64,000 nucleotides of DNA. It comes from Frankia sp. AiPa1 (GTDB lineage Bacteria; Actinomycetota; Actinomycetes; Frankiales; Frankiaceae). Position numbers and translations under genes: made by a program. Below the pieces are notes generated by a model. It was not told the DNA's origin. It made no database searches and saw only the letters and a program-made list of their open reading frames with translations. Positions 26,980 through 34,481 of this stretch are shown here, piece after piece (the first letter of the stretch is position 1; the number at the start of each line of letters is the position of its first letter). The DNA is taken from NCBI RefSeq assembly GCF_023243075.1, contig NZ_JALKFZ020000002.1, positions 62,001 to 126,000 on the forward strand. Direction: 5' to 3'.

Positions 26980-28266
26980 TTACGCCCCTCCACTGGAAGC
27001 ACCGAACCCGCCCGTACGGTGCGAACCGGATCCACCTGGGGTCCGCAGCAGGGAGGCCGGGCCGACGGCGTCCATCCCGAACCGCGAACGGGCTCGGTCG
27101 GTGACCCGATCCAGCTCCGCCCATCCGGCGGGCCGTTCGCCGAGCAGGAGCTGACGCCCGGAGCTCTCGGCCTCCACGAGGCTGCCGGCGCGGATGCCCA
27201 GCAGTCGCACGGCCGGAATTCCCGAGCCCTGTAGGCCGAGCTCCGTGACAAGGTCGAGGGCGGTGCTGTGGACCGTCCGGGTCACATCGGTCGCCTCGTG
27301 CAGGGTCCGTGATCGGGTGATGGTGCGGAAGTCGGCATAGCGGACCTTGACGGCGAGTGTCCGGGCCCGGCGTCGCCGCTGGCGTAGCTGCCCGGCCACC
27401 CGCCCGGACAGGAGCAGGAGCTCGCGGGCGAGCATCGCGGCATCGCTGCTGTCGGCGGCGAAGGTCCGCTCGGCGCCGATCGTCACATCAGTGCGCTCCG
27501 GCTCCACTCGCCGCGGGTCGACTCCCCAGGACAACCGGTGCAGGTGGGTGCCCACGGCATCGCCGAGGGACCGGCGCAACGTGTCGAGCGATGTCCCCGC
27601 GATGTCCCCGATCGTGCGCAGCCCGAGCCGAGCGAGCGTCGCCTCGGCCCGCGGCCCGACTCCCCACAACGCCCCGGTCGGCAGCGGGTGCAGGAAGGAG
27701 AGAACCTGCTCCGGGGCGATGACAGCAAGCCCGTCGGGCTTGCACCGGGTCGACGCGATCTTGGCGACGAACATCGTCGGAGCGACACCGACCGAGCAGG
27801 TCAGGCCCTGTTCGGTCGCGACCCGGCGGCGAATGGCCGCGGCGATGTCGGGGGCGGAGCCGAACAGGCCACGGGCACCGGCCACGTCCAGAAAGGCCTC
27901 GTCCACGGACAGCGGCGCGACCAGCGGAGTGAACTCGCGGAAGACTCGCATGATCTCCCTGGACGCGGCCCGGTAGGCATGGTGATCGGGTGGGACGACC
28001 ACCGCCGTCGGGCACAGCCGCCGGGCCTGGCCCATCGGCATGGCGCTGCGCACGCCGTAGGCGCGTGCCTCGTAGGTCGCGGATAGGACGACGCCACGCC
28101 CGCCACCCGCCACGACCATCGGCCGGCCCCGCAGCTCCGGCCGGCGCCGCAGCTCGACAGACGCGAAGAACGCGTCCATGTCGACGTGCAGAACCGTGCT
28201 GTCGACCTGCGCAACCGGGCTCTCGCCCGATACCGGGGGTGTGCCCCGGCCCGCGGCGGCGACCAT
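26980..28266 (-). CDS. dinB: DNA polymerase IV (DinB, Y-family)
   Basis: Pol IV is a translesion polymerase. The 428-residue protein shows the catalytic motifs HVDMDAFFASVE and LSVDEAFLDV, YEARAYGVRSAMP, SVGVAPTMFVAKIAS, the helix-hairpin region LWGVGPRAEATLARLGLRTIGDIA, and a little-finger domain to about residue 370. No C-terminal beta-clamp motif is obvious; the tail is Gly/Ser-rich. The start overlaps the methyltransferase stop by 1 nt (TGATG), so the two are coupled. No LexA box was seen directly upstream, unlike the imuA' cassette nearby. Confidence 0.95.
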   Translation of the reverse strand: MVAAAGRGTPPVSGESPVAQVDSTVLHVDMDAFFASVELRRRPELRGRPMVVAGGGRGVVLSATYEARAYGVRSAMPMGQARRLCPTAVVVPPDHHAYRAASREIMRVFREFTPLVAPLSVDEAFLDVAGARGLFGSAPDIAAAIRRRVATEQGLTCSVGVAPTMFVAKIASTRCKPDGLAVIAPEQVLSFLHPLPTGALWGVGPRAEATLARLGLRTIGDIAGTSLDTLRRSLGDAVGTHLHRLSWGVDPRRVEPERTDVTIGAERTFAADSSDAAMLARELLLLSGRVAGQLRQRRRRARTLAVKVRYADFRTITRSRTLHEATDVTRTVHSTALDLVTELGLQGSGIPAVRLLGIRAGSLVEAESSGRQLLLGERPAGWAELDRVTDRARSRFGMDAVGPASLLRTPGGSGSHRTGGFGASSGGA

Positions 28267-29611: not shown

Positions 29612-32278
29612 TCATCTAAAGTCCCGGGACTGTCGGGGTGCCGCGACCGGCAACAACCACATCCGCTCGGCGATCACGTTGACCACTCCCGCGGCCCGTT
29701 CGACCCGCCCCCGCACGATGAGGGCCGTCGCCGTCCGTGCCACCGTGCGGTGCCGGGCCCACATACCGGGCGAGCAGATCACGTTCACCAGACCGGTCTC
29801 GTCCTCCAGGTTCACGAAGGTGGTCCCGGCCGCGGTCGCCGGGCGCTGCCGATGGGTGACGATCCCGGCGACGAGAACGCGCCGACCCGCGGTCACGCCC
29901 TGGGCCACGAGCCGTTCCCGCAGGAACCGGGTCGGATAACCCGCAACGGTGATCCCAGTCGCCCACAGGTCGGCCACCGACTCCTCGACCGCGCTCATCC
30001 CCGGCAGGTACGGCGCGACCGTGTGGACGTCGGCGCCGAAGACCATGTCGTCGAGACGGTCTGGCCGGGCCTGCGCCACCGCGCCCGCCGCCCACAGCGC
30101 CTCACGCCGGGCCAGCCCGAAGCAGGCGAACGCGCCGGCGGTGGCGAGCGCCTCGACCTGGTCGACGGTCACGCCGGTCCGGCGGACGAGATCCGCCATG
30201 TCCGTGTAGGGACCGTCCGCGCGGCGGAGCTCGACGATGCGCCGAGCCAGGTCCTCCCCCACCCGCCGGACCCCGGCGAGCCCGAGGCGGACCCGAGGCG
30301 GCACACCGACCAGGCTCGCCTGCGCCGCCGAGGCGTTGACGTCGGGTCGCAGGACCTCGACGCCATGCCGACGGGCGTCGGCGACGAGGCTTTGCGGCGA
30401 GTAGAAGCCCATCGGCTGCGCGTTCAGCAGCGCGGCGCAGAACACCGCCGGGTAGTAGAGCTTGATCCAGGAACTGGCATACACGAGCAGCGCGAAGCTC
30501 ACCGAGTGGCTCTCGGGAAACCCGAAGTTCGCGAAGGCGGACAGCTTCGTGTACAGGTCGTCGGCCAGCGCGCCGGTGATGCCGCTCGCCGCCATCCCGG
30601 CGTAGAGCCGGCCGCGCAGCCGCCCGACGCGCTCGGCGGACCGTTTGGATCCCATGGCCCGGCGCAGCTCGTCCGCCTCCGCCGGGGAGAACCCGGCGAT
30701 GTCGATCGCCATCTGCATCAACTGCTCCTGGAACAGGGGAACGCCCAGGGTCTTGGCCAGGCTGCGACGCAGCAGCGGATGTGGGTAGGTCACCTCCTCA
30801 GCCCCGTTACGCCGGCGGATATAGGGGTGCACCGAGCCGCCCTGGATCGGCCCCGGCCGGATCAGCGCCACCTCGATCACCAGGTCGTAGAACCGGCGGG
30901 GCCGCAGCCGGGGCAACGTCGCCATCTGCGCCCGGCTCTCCACCTGGAACACCCCGACGGAGTCGGCTGCGCAGAGCATGTCGTAGACTGCGGGGTCCTC
31001 CGGCGGGATCGAGGACAGGTCCAGGTCACGCCCGTGGTGGTCGCGGATGAGGTCGAACGCCTTGTGCAGCATCGCGAGCATGCCGAGGCCGAGCAGGTCG
31101 AACTTGACCAGGCCGGCGGCGGCACAGTCGTCCTTGTCCCACTGGATGACCGTCCGCCCGGGCATCCGGGCCCACTCGACCGGGACCACCTCCCCGACCG
31201 GCCGGTCGCAGATGACCATGCCACCGGAGTGGATGCCCAGGTGCCGGGGAAATCCCTGCAGCTGCTCGAAGAGCCGGGTGACCGCGGACGGGATGTCATG
31301 CTCCGGCCCGATGATCGACTGTCCGGGCACCGCGGTCTGGGTGGGCTGGGCGGGCAGGGCGGACCGGGTGGGCAGGGACCACCGGTCGAGCTGGCGGGAC
31401 CAGGCATCCTGTTGGCCCGGGGAGAATCCCAGCGCCCGGGCGACGTCCCGCACCGCCGACCGCCGCCGGTAGGTGATCACGTTGGCGACCTGCGCGGCCC
31501 GGGACCGCCCGTAGCGTCGATAGACGTACTGGATCACCTCCTCGCGCCGCCCGGACTCGATGTCCAGATCGATGTCGGGCGGCCCGTCCCGCTCGGGCGC
31601 GAGAAACCGCTCGAACAGCAGGCCGAAGGAGACCGCGTCCACCCCGGTGATGCCCAGGGCGTAGCAGACCGCCGAGTTCGCCGCCGATCCCCGCCCCTGG
31701 CAGAGGATCCGGTGCCGACGGCAGTACTCGACGATGTCGTGGACGATGAGGAAGTAGCCGGGGAAACCAAGCTGCTCGATCAGGGTCAGCTCGTGGGCGA
31801 GCTGGTCGTAGGCACCGGCGACCCGCTCCCGGCCGGCCGGGCCGTAGCGCCGCACCGCGCCCTGCATGGTCAGCAGCCGCAGCCAGCTGGCCTCGGTGTG
31901 CCCCGGCGGGACGGGGAAGTCGGGCAGCCGGGGCGCGACCAACTGCAGGTCGAAGGCGCACGCGGCACCGATGCGGGCGGCCTGCTCCACCGCGCCGGGG
32001 TAGCGGGCGAAGCGGGCGGCCATCTCAGCCCCGGAGCGCAGGTGCGCGGTTCCCGCCGCCGGCAGCCAGCCGTCCATCTCGTCCAGGCTGCGCCGGGCCC
32101 GGACCGCGGCCATCGTCGCGGCGAGCCGGGCCGCGCCGGGCACCGCATAGTGGACGTTGCCGGTCGCCACCAGGGGCAGCCCCGCGGCAAGCGCGAGCGC
32201 CGCGAGGGCATCGTTGCGATCCGTCTCGCCCGGATGGCCGTGGTCGGTGATCTCCACCGCCACGTTGCCCGGCGGCAA
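29612..32278 (-). CDS. dnaE2: Error-prone DNA polymerase DnaE2, N-terminally truncated (possible pseudogene)
   Basis: DnaE2 is the C-family polymerase of the SOS mutasome with ImuA' and ImuB. The 888-residue frame begins TTG, PPGNVAVEITDHGHP, which in the family is about 200 residues into the protein; the N-terminal PHP domain is missing. The rest is intact: HLRSGAEMAARFA, polymerase motif GRGSAANSAVCYALGI, metal-binding PDIDLDIE, IRPGPIQGGSVHPYIRRRNG, helix-hairpin-helix, and the C-terminal OB region. Family proteins are about 1,080-1,150 residues. Upstream, imuB codons run into this frame out of register. Any translation would have to start at TTG 32278 or GTG 32263. Whether the product is active is unknown. 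Confidence 0.85.
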   Translation of the reverse strand: MPPGNVAVEITDHGHPGETDRNDALAALALAAGLPLVATGNVHYAVPGAARLAATMAAVRARRSLDEMDGWLPAAGTAHLRSGAEMAARFARYPGAVEQAARIGAACAFDLQLVAPRLPDFPVPPGHTEASWLRLLTMQGAVRRYGPAGRERVAGAYDQLAHELTLIEQLGFPGYFLIVHDIVEYCRRHRILCQGRGSAANSAVCYALGITGVDAVSFGLLFERFLAPERDGPPDIDLDIESGRREEVIQYVYRRYGRSRAAQVANVITYRRRSAVRDVARALGFSPGQQDAWSRQLDRWSLPTRSALPAQPTQTAVPGQSIIGPEHDIPSAVTRLFEQLQGFPRHLGIHSGGMVICDRPVGEVVPVEWARMPGRTVIQWDKDDCAAAGLVKFDLLGLGMLAMLHKAFDLIRDHHGRDLDLSSIPPEDPAVYDMLCAADSVGVFQVESRAQMATLPRLRPRRFYDLVIEVALIRPGPIQGGSVHPYIRRRNGAEEVTYPHPLLRRSLAKTLGVPLFQEQLMQMAIDIAGFSPAEADELRRAMGSKRSAERVGRLRGRLYAGMAASGITGALADDLYTKLSAFANFGFPESHSVSFALLVYASSWIKLYYPAVFCAALLNAQPMGFYSPQSLVADARRHGVEVLRPDVNASAAQASLVGVPPRVRLGLAGVRRVGEDLARRIVELRRADGPYTDMADLVRRTGVTVDQVEALATAGAFACFGLARREALWAAGAVAQARPDRLDDMVFGADVHTVAPYLPGMSAVEESVADLWATGITVAGYPTRFLRERLVAQGVTAGRRVLVAGIVTHRQRPATAAGTTFVNLEDETGLVNVICSPGMWARHRTVARTATALIVRGRVERAAGVVNVIAERMWLLPVAAPRQSRDFR

Positions 32279-32363
32279 GCACCGCGGTGGGCAGGTCCTC
32301 CGTAGCGCCGGCGGCCAGGACCGGCCAGTCCGGGTAGTGCACGGCGAGCACGCGAACCGCCAC
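32268..32363 (-). pseudogene. imuB: imuB remnant (first 32 codons) fused out of frame to dnaE2
   Basis: GTG 32363, one base after the imuA' stop, begins MAVRVLAVHYPDWPVLAAG...TAVLAAG, the usual start of ImuB, the Y-family-like hub protein that joins DnaE2 to the beta clamp. After codon 32 the similarity stops and the DNA continues as dnaE2 in another frame. So a deletion removed most of imuB and the 5' part of dnaE2. Confidence 0.8.
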
Positions 32364-32364
32364 T

Positions 32365-33060
32365 TCAGGCCACCTCCATCGGACGCAGCCGCACCGCCGG
32401 CGGCGGGCCACCCACGGCCGGCTCACCATCGGCCGGCTCCCGGTCAGCCAGCAAGGCGTCGGACAGCCAGGCGCGGCGGGGCCGACGGGCCGCGCCCCGC
32501 CCGGACGCCTCCACCAGCAGGTCGCCCACCCGCACGTGACCGTGCCCGGCGCCGACGCCGTCCCAGCGCCGTTCGAGAGCTACCAGGCACAGATCGGCCC
32601 CCTCCCAGGCGCCCACGGCTACCAGGACCGCCCCGCGCTCGCGCGCCCGGGCCATCAGCCGCCGACCCGCCGACCCGGCCCGCGCCGGCGGGCGGACCAC
32701 CACGACATCCATGGCATCGAGCAGCGCGGCCACGACCACCGGCCAGCGCGGCCCCGGCGCCGGTACGAGGGCGAGCCGCTCCAGCACGATCCCCGTCTCA
32801 GCCGCCGCGAGCAGGCCGAGCTGGGCGAACCCCACCACCGCACACCAGGCACCAGCCTGGGAGGGAGCGCTCAGCAATGTCAGCACCAGCGAGGCGGAGC
32901 CGGTGACCGCGACGGTCGTCCCTCGGCGCAGCCCCGCCTCGGGCAGAATCGCGGCCAGGGCGGATGCCACCGGCACCAGACGCTCACCGGCATGGGCGGC
33001 CCGCCGCACGGGGCTGTGCGCGATCTCCTGCAGGGCGGCCAGCGCCGCCGGAGCAGCCAC
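32365..33060 (-). CDS. imuA: ImuA' mutasome accessory protein
   Basis: The 231-residue protein is a RecA-like fold of the actinobacterial ImuA' type, needed with ImuB and DnaE2 for damage-induced mutagenesis. Seen: LVPVASALAAILPEAGLRRGTTVAVTGSASLVLTLLSAP, GAWCAVVGFAQLGLLAAAETG, VVVAALLDAMDVVVVRPP and RERGAVLVAVGAWEGADLCL. The Walker A is not conserved, as is normal in this group. GTG start 7 nt after the HEPN gene; its stop is one base from the imuB start, so the operon HEPN-imuA'-imuB-dnaE2 was once intact. Confidence 0.88.
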   Translation of the reverse strand: MAAPAALAALQEIAHSPVRRAAHAGERLVPVASALAAILPEAGLRRGTTVAVTGSASLVLTLLSAPSQAGAWCAVVGFAQLGLLAAAETGIVLERLALVPAPGPRWPVVVAALLDAMDVVVVRPPARAGSAGRRLMARARERGAVLVAVGAWEGADLCLVALERRWDGVGAGHGHVRVGDLLVEASGRGAARRPRRAWLSDALLADREPADGEPAVGGPPPAVRLRPMEVA

Positions 33061-33066
33061 GCCGGC

Positions 33067-33690
33067 CTACCCCCGCCGCGCCGGCCGCACGGGCGCCATG
33101 GGCCCGCCGCCGGCCAGCGCTGGCTGGGACGGCAGCCCGAGCATGCTTTCCACAGCGCCGAGGAACAGATGGACCTGGCGGATCAGGTCGTCGGCCTCGC
33201 GGCGGCCCACCACGTTCAGCCCGGCCTCGGCGGCGGCCCGCCGCCCGGCGCCCGCCGCGAAGAAGTCCGCCCACTCGCCCAGCTCGGGAGCCACCCGAAC
33301 GAGCAGGCGCCAGGCACTCAACGGCCGGCCACGGCGGCCGGGCCGGGGCTGCGCCCGGTCGGCCAGCACCGCGGCCGCCGCCCGCAGCGCGGCGAGATGG
33401 GCCAGGGCGTAACGCTGCGGGATGCGGGTGGCGTACTCAGCCTCACCGAGACCTCGCCACGCCGCTGCGAGCAGCTCGTCCCGGGAGCGGCGCGGAAGCC
33501 CGGCGGCGGGCAGCAGGGCACGCCCCGGCGCCCCGGCACGCATACCCTCCCCCCGGGCGGACCCGACCGGCTGCCGGCCGGGTGCTCCGTCACCGGCCGC
33601 TCTGCGACCGGCTGCCCTGTGACCGGCCGCCCCGCCACCGACTGCACCGCCACCGACTGCACCGCCACCGAGTGACCTGTCAGGAGCCAT
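33067..33690 (-). CDS. SAV_6107-family HEPN domain protein
   Basis: The 207-residue product has an N-terminal Gly/Ala-rich repeat region (about 1-60) and a helical domain with LLAAAWRGLGEAEYATRIPQRYALAHLAALRAAAAVL and LVRVAPELGEWADFFAAGA. These match the SAV_6107 HEPN family, which sits beside imuA'/dnaE2 in many actinobacteria. HEPN domains are often nucleic-acid-binding or RNase modules, but the canonical RX4-6H motif is not evident here, and the role is unknown. ATG 33690 has GGGGAGGG upstream. A perfect LexA box stands 17 nt before the start, making it the first gene of an SOS operon. Confidence 0.82.
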   Translation of the reverse strand: MAPDRSLGGGAVGGGAVGGGAAGHRAAGRRAAGDGAPGRQPVGSARGEGMRAGAPGRALLPAAGLPRRSRDELLAAAWRGLGEAEYATRIPQRYALAHLAALRAAAAVLADRAQPRPGRRGRPLSAWRLLVRVAPELGEWADFFAAGAGRRAAAEAGLNVVGRREADDLIRQVHLFLGAVESMLGLPSQPALAGGGPMAPVRPARRG

Positions 33691-33706
33691 GACGCCCTCC
33701 CCGAAG

Positions 33707-33722
33707 TCGAACAAAGGTTCGA
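33707..33722 (-). promoter_or_regulatory. LexA (SOS) box
   Basis: TCGAACAAAGGTTCGA is a perfect palindromic match to the actinobacterial/Gram-positive SOS consensus TCGAAC-N4-GTTCGA. It lies 17-32 nt upstream of the HEPN start, placing HEPN, imuA' and truncated dnaE2 under LexA. Confidence 0.85.
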
Positions 33723-33755
33723 ATATCTGGAAGGTAGCTCGCTCCGGCCGACCCG

Positions 33756-34481
33756 TCAAACACCCAGGTGGCGATCGCCCGAGCGGGCATCGGCAGCCAA
33801 GGCGGGACGCAGTTCCAGCAGGCGCAGGAACCAGCCGAGCACCAGCAGCCCGAGCATGTCGGGCAACCAGCCCCGCCGCGGGTCCGGGAGATCCCCCCGA
33901 CAGGTATCCCCCGAACCCGCGCTCGGAGCCCGCCCCGGCCAGCGCGCGAACCGCGACGACACCGACAACAGCGGCCACGGGGGCAGCTGCGAGCGCGACG
34001 GCCGCCGTGGCGGCGGGTTGAACAGGTCGATGGCGGCGAAGACGAGCGCCGTCCCGTCCATGGCAAACCGGATGATGTTGGCATCCCGATGTCCCACCAG
34101 CCCGCTGTCGAAGGACCCGCGGGTCGGCTGGAGCCAGCGCAGCACCGTCCCGTCCGCCAGCCGCACCCGGCCGCCGACCCGCTGCCGGGCGAAGACCGCG
34201 ACCGGGATCCGTCCCATTGGCTCGACCAGGCGAACCCCCTGGCCGTCGAGGTCGAGCTCCAGCACGAACGGCCGCCCCGCCACCATCAGCTCGACCCGCT
34301 CCTGGGAGTCCCAGTCGGCAAGCACCCCGACCTCATCGGCCTCGACCCACACCTGCCGGACCGCCCCGCCGTGGCCGCCCGCGGCGTCCCGCAGGAACAG
34401 CTCGTGCGGCAGGCCGCCGGCCCGCCGGGGAAGCTCCCGCACCGGCTCGCGCTCCGGAGCTCTCGTCACTGCCGTGGTCAT
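33756..34481 (-). CDS. Hypothetical protein with C-terminal membrane segment
   Basis: I do not recognise this 241-residue protein. ATG 34481 has GGAGG 8 nt upstream. Residues 40-150 look like a beta-rich domain with alternating hydrophobic strands (RVELMVAGRPFVLELDLDGQGVRLVEP, PVAVFARQRVGGRVRLADGTVLRW, DANIIRFAMDGTALVFAAID). This could be a scramblase/LURP-one-like fold, but that is a guess. A Pro/Arg/Ser-rich spacer and a hydrophobic helix (DMLGLLVLGWFLRLLEL) follow. It lies downstream of, and divergent from, the AfsR-like regulator, with a SARP-type repeat in the shared spacer. Confidence 0.7.
   Translation of the reverse strand: MTTAVTRAPEREPVRELPRRAGGLPHELFLRDAAGGHGGAVRQVWVEADEVGVLADWDSQERVELMVAGRPFVLELDLDGQGVRLVEPMGRIPVAVFARQRVGGRVRLADGTVLRWLQPTRGSFDSGLVGHRDANIIRFAMDGTALVFAAIDLFNPPPRRPSRSQLPPWPLLSVSSRFARWPGRAPSAGSGDTCRGDLPDPRRGWLPDMLGLLVLGWFLRLLELRPALAADARSGDRHLGV

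Follow-up and report, generated by a model that had tools for sequence, protein, structure and literature searches.

In Frankia sp. AiPa1 (G000), one recent deletion of about 2.1-2.2 kb appears to have broken the SOS cassette imuA'-imuB-dnaE2; the mutasome is most likely dead, and the remaining dnaE2 sequence is best read as an undecayed pseudogene, a reading to which we assign a probability of roughly 0.85. The locus lies in the window, by which is meant the whole stretch of 64,000 nucleotides that was analysed (C121:62001-126000, from a contig of 257,512 bases), and the genome is a draft assembly of 6,978,179 bases in 198 contigs with a completeness of 88.51%. The comparison covered 13 genomes of the genus, a wider set of 35 Frankiaceae and, for the junction itself, the four relatives in which the whole of imuB is present (G001, G007, G008 and G012). 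The comparison of DnaE2 outside the family covers the best 80 loci among the matches listed, which come from other actinobacteria and related records and include no Frankiaceae. A literature search, which was weak on subscription journals, returned no paper that deals with mutasome loss in Frankia, with a scar fusing imuB to dnaE2 or with a HEPN gene associated with LexA and imuA.

The genes of the locus are encoded on the minus strand in the order SOS box, HEPN_SAV_6107, imuA', 32 codons of imuB, dnaE2 remnant and, further on, dinB. A pattern scan located a perfect SOS (LexA) box, TCGAAC-CTTT-GTTCGA, at positions 33707-33722 upstream of the operon, the first gene of which (33067-33690, the start codon being our own choice) encodes HEPN_SAV_6107, as recognized by Pfam PF18726 with an E-value of 6.9e-33 on the longer open reading frame 33067-33978. 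The following gene, imuA' (32365-33060), is present and open over 231 aa, scoring 170.5 bits against NCBIfam NF058630 (E-value 2.1e-50, cut-off 65 bits); its stop codon is TGA 32367-32365, and imuB begins with GTG at 32363. Only codons 1-32 of imuB are left (32268-32363, as delimited by alignment to the four intact relatives). The dnaE2 remnant (29612-32266) comprises 884 codons and a stop, starts at about residue 223 of the full protein and matches NF004225 over positions 164-1047 of 1047 with 1322.6 bits. It has no start codon of its own, and the open reading frame counted from TTG 32278 amounts to 888 aa. The polymerase core is retained, with matches to PF07733, PF17657, PF14579 and PF01336 (palm, fingers, HhH and OB). 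The dinB gene (26980-28266, 428 aa; PF00817 at 27751-28185, E-value 1.5e-55) is intact and located ~1.3 kb downstream of dnaE2.

The first-pass annotation proposed that a deletion had fused imuB to dnaE2, leaving 32 imuB codons followed by dnaE2 in a shifted frame, and the alignment to the four intact relatives confirms both points. Codons 1-32 of imuB in the window align with codons 1-32 in each relative, and dnaE2 sequence resumes at AAC 32266, which corresponds to residue ~216-225 of the relatives' protein and corrects the initial estimate of about 200. In a register-fixed comparison the best-fitting breakpoint places the last base of the imuB side at 32267-32271, varying with the relative, and a couple of bases at most are common to both sides. 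The two points joined at this junction are separated by 2,173 nt in G001, 2,107 nt in G007, 2,170 nt in G008 and 2,173 nt in G012, genomes in which imuB has 522-544 codons and overlaps the start of dnaE2. As the dnaE2 frame is +1 relative to the imuB frame, no simple fusion protein is expected. Read from its GTG, the imuB frame (32025-32363) now encodes 32 ImuB residues and 80 out-of-frame residues and ends in a stop at 32025; the list of open reading frames gives the same frame from an upstream ATG. The frame of dnaE2 extends without a stop as far upstream as ~32422. The longest exact repeats between the imuB and dnaE2 sides, measured in the four relatives, are 11-13 nt and lie away from the breakpoint; repeats of this length, none of them at the breakpoint, fit an illegitimate deletion and not the collapse of a long repeat. 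As a separate observation, dnaE2 of G012 shifts frame near residue 796 (numbering of the window protein), by the C-terminus, representing either a sequencing error or a second incipient decay.

The initial claim that nearly all of ImuB had been lost is borne out by the 32 remaining codons, and ImuB in the window lacks the Y-family fold as well as the clamp motif. The ImuB proteins of the relatives carry QLGLWG within the part that is deleted here; this sequence is similar to QLPLWG, the clamp motif given for mycobacteria in PMC10421592. The PHP domain of DnaE2, which had been described as removed, is mostly but not wholly gone. The remnant is devoid of ~222 N-terminal residues, including the start, and PF02811 (PHP) has no match in it but is found in G008 and G001; however, about ten residues of the Pfam PHP match and the end of the structural PHP domain are kept (the Pfam match in G008 DnaE2 covers residues 60-232 and the cut falls near 223, or near Taq residue 176 in the alignment to Taq Pol III alpha). 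In the AlphaFold model presented in the accessible portion of PMC12926913, the main DnaE2-ImuB contact is formed by PHP and the C-terminal barrel of ImuB, and the deletion, as mapped on this modelled interface, would take the ImuB side wholly and the DnaE2 side mostly. According to the sections available of PMC10421592, all three mutasome proteins are individually needed in mycobacteria, as is the contact between ImuB and the clamp.

It is likely that the ancestor possessed the standard actinobacterial SOS cassette, HEPN - imuA' - imuB - dnaE2, and that a single, presumably illegitimate deletion occurred within the last small part of the history of the lineage, joining imuB codon 32 out of frame to dnaE2 codon ~223. 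ImuB, the clamp-binding hub, would have disappeared in this event together with the start of DnaE2 and most of its PHP domain, the main contact of the ImuB C-terminus in the published model, and it is because of these losses that the mutasome is considered most likely to have lost its function. DNA damage followed by LexA release should still yield HEPN and ImuA', and the open dnaE2 would be a pseudogene too young to have accumulated further damage.

Substitution patterns in the surviving part of dnaE2 agree with a recent event. With G001, G007, G002 and G006 as outgroups, the dN/dS of the remnant on the G000 branch was 0.112, 0.123, 0.123 and 0.131, respectively, and that on the branch of the intact sister G008 was 0.135, 0.127, 0.127 and 0.121. 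No relaxed selection on the remnant was detected in these comparisons, the bootstrap intervals of the G000-G008 difference all spanning zero with upper limits of 0.049-0.089. The figures are restricted to these four outgroups, as the rpoB tree does not support G012 as a genuine outgroup and its dnaE2 row is limited to the beginning of the gene, and G009 was excluded because it is cut by a contig end. The estimates for imuA' and HEPN were too noisy to use; for instance, the imuA' value of the G000 branch was above that of the sister with G012 and below it with the other three outgroups. The lack of relaxed selection implies either a young deletion or a remnant under constraint, and the absence of a second disabling change, combined with the low dN/dS, is also expected of a constrained remnant; a young cut is nevertheless far likelier. 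Under neutral evolution of the remnant after the cut, the upper limits translate into a post-deletion share of the branch of at most about 6-10%. The earlier description of the loss as recent holds insofar as amino-acid replacements are not in excess in the remaining dnaE2.

A constrained remnant would imply a truncated DnaE2, produced by initiation within the gene (at TTG 32278 or GTG 32263) or through a +1 frameshift from imuB, that works without ImuB, either alone or with ImuA'. The remnant is indeed open over 888 codons with its core domains and evolves no faster than dnaE2 of the intact sister, and the DnaE2B and DnaE2X polymerases have been described, in the available text of PMC12926913, from genomes without imuA and imuB. 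However, any deletion of recent date should leave a low dN/dS, most of the PHP domain, which belongs to the polymerase fold, has gone, and the possible starts are not preceded by a well-spaced Shine-Dalgarno-like site, a GGAGGA ending 17 nt before the TTG. The first-pass annotation had named a conserved short dnaE2 with imuB encoded elsewhere as the case that would speak against its interpretation. Among the best 80 loci listed, the DnaE2 N-terminus (from residue <=60) is present in 73, and in the other seven the match starts no more than 75 nt from the end of a contig. The short form is thus not seen at any locus long enough to show it, and a conserved short DnaE2 was accordingly rejected. 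An ImuB match was identified in 50 of these loci and ImuA' in 40, all 40 with ImuB, many loci being too short upstream to tell. Given also the mycobacterial need for all three proteins, the suggestion of a truncated polymerase working with ImuA' is unsupported, and a functional remnant of any kind seems quite improbable.

That the strain has an intact cassette hidden by an assembly error or collapse is unlikely as well. The genome is an incomplete draft in many contigs, and in two draft relatives, G002 and G009, contigs break off within or close to the region, which hints that it may be difficult to assemble. Against this, the exact repeats seen in the four relatives are located off the breakpoint and too short for a usual collapse, although the sequence lost from G000 itself may have differed, and the missing stretch was not found on another G000 contig. 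With side-to-side repeats of at most 13 nt, a repeat-driven collapse is not supported. The idea that another contig carries a second ImuB or the detached N-terminus of dnaE2 was likewise rejected, none being found in G000. The single Y-family match to PF00817 in this genome (88.5% complete) is dinB, and the same search recovers ImuB in G001, G002, G007, G008 and G012. The ImuB of G008, a query that had no control of its own, gave nothing in G000 at E <= 10, and the DnaE2 N-terminus retrieved nothing beyond DnaE1 (31% identity) and other PHP proteins, the latter over short stretches. At this completeness ImuB may still lie on an unassembled stretch. A further scenario, in which the neighbouring DinB has replaced ImuB as the Y-family partner of the remaining DnaE2, is hardly credible. 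An intact dinB is close at hand, and pairings of DnaE2 with PolY have been proposed for other DnaE2 groups in the part of PMC12926913 that is accessible; yet dinB occupies the same place in relatives with an intact imuB, hence its presence is no response to the loss, and most of the DnaE2 region that meets the ImuB C-terminus in the published model has been deleted. DinB was thus rejected as a substitute. The nearest relatives, G008 and G012, keep imuB; a DinB match is absent in G008, and only a piece of one is present in G012. Judged from these sequences, the neighbourhood appears to lose different translesion polymerases in different lineages.

The preferred reading, a young deletion and a dead mutasome, has parallels among related species, which have lost the cassette independently both in the genus and in the family. 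The flanks are joined and the cassette is gone in G004 and G005. Within the 13-genome set of the genus, only DnaE1-like matches and no dnaE2 match beyond those occur in G003, G004, G005 and G010, and G011 has pieces of dnaE2 directly after HEPN; in the wider family, such pieces follow HEPN directly in G016 and G017 as well. ImuA' above the cut-off was identified in 18 of the 35 Frankiaceae, with G006 and G009 unscorable for its loss as their contigs stop near the cassette locus. In the rpoB tree, G000 is the neighbour of G008 plus G012 (support 96), and G004 groups with G010 (support 99); if the cassette is ancestral, this topology gives four to five losses in the genus, several of its forks being weak (support 40-52). 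In the poorly resolved DnaE1 tree, a very long branch separates the DnaE1-like proteins of G003 (with two near-equal places) and G012 from those of the remaining 11 genomes, which may reflect replacement, a second type or, in G012, contamination.

The first-pass annotation listed the LexA box among the well-kept parts. The box is perfect, but it heads the HEPN gene and is not directly upstream of imuA'; it may also drive imuA' and dnaE2. As a sign of a kept mutasome it fails, as it precedes HEPN and is kept in genomes without imuA'. HEPN_SAV_6107 is present in 32 of the 35 Frankiaceae, the three genomes without it (G006, G009 and G010) being fragmented drafts, and a perfect TCGAAC-N4-GTTCGA occurs upstream on the same strand at all 30 Frankiaceae loci examined, at a distance of 68-370 nt in 28 of them and of 639 nt (G015) and 723 nt (G013) in the other two. 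Thirteen of these 30 boxed loci belong to genomes without imuA' over the cut-off. The box is therefore kept with HEPN irrespective of the mutasome and constitutes weak evidence for mutasome function. Outside the family, HEPN precedes imuA' in nine of the best 80 loci, each from a record named as Micromonosporaceae; seven of the nine have an upstream box with one mismatch. A HEPN survey describes the SAV_6107 family as actinobacterial and without a conserved catalytic motif, and the available part of it notes no association (PMC3710099). It is conceivable, though we hold it with slightly less than even confidence, that the lasting SOS output of the locus in Frankiaceae is HEPN_SAV_6107, acting in the response to damage independently of the mutasome, and that the mutasome genes are dispensable cargo that has been repeatedly lost. 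At G013:C115:4755-7979 and G015:C156:27-918, HEPN is followed directly by a C-family polymerase match with only 36% and 43% identity to DnaE2, respectively; judging from these two loci, other DnaE genes may also accompany HEPN.

Compared with known systems, the locus is closest to the mycobacterial ImuA'-ImuB-DnaE2 mutasome (with an ImuA' of the Rv3395c type; ImuA2-ImuB2-DnaE2A in the portion of PMC12926913 available), whose gene order is found in G001, G007, G008 and G012. The window shares with it the ImuA' model NF058630, the DnaE2 model NF004225 and the SOS box, and differs in the reduction of ImuB to 32 codons, in the absence of ~222 N-terminal DnaE2 residues and in the HEPN gene before imuA'. 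The DnaE2 of the window is 89-91% identical to a cassette DnaE2 of a sister species, and its assignment to DnaE2A is inferred from its genomic partners. The DnaE2B and DnaE2X groups likewise comprise a DnaE2 without ImuB, but they keep other partners, as far as the accessible sections of PMC12926913 describe them, whereas the window keeps imuA'. As in other Frankiaceae, where the cassette has been lost altogether or persists as dnaE2 relics, related genomes differ by cassette loss; in contrast to those cases, the cut in the window is unusually clean, with imuA' and 80% of dnaE2 still open.

The locus is a real but fairly ordinary case of gene decay, in which the loss of an SOS mutagenesis cassette has been caught soon after the break and the cut mapped to a few bases. 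Together with an intact sister, G000 forms a strain pair that represents a natural knockout for the costs and benefits of damage-induced mutagenesis in a lineage of soil bacteria and plant symbionts. If the proposed reading of HEPN is true, the window would be a snapshot of mutasome loss just after the event. The SOS-boxed HEPN gene, which persists where the mutasome is lost, suggests that an SOS gene has so far escaped study.
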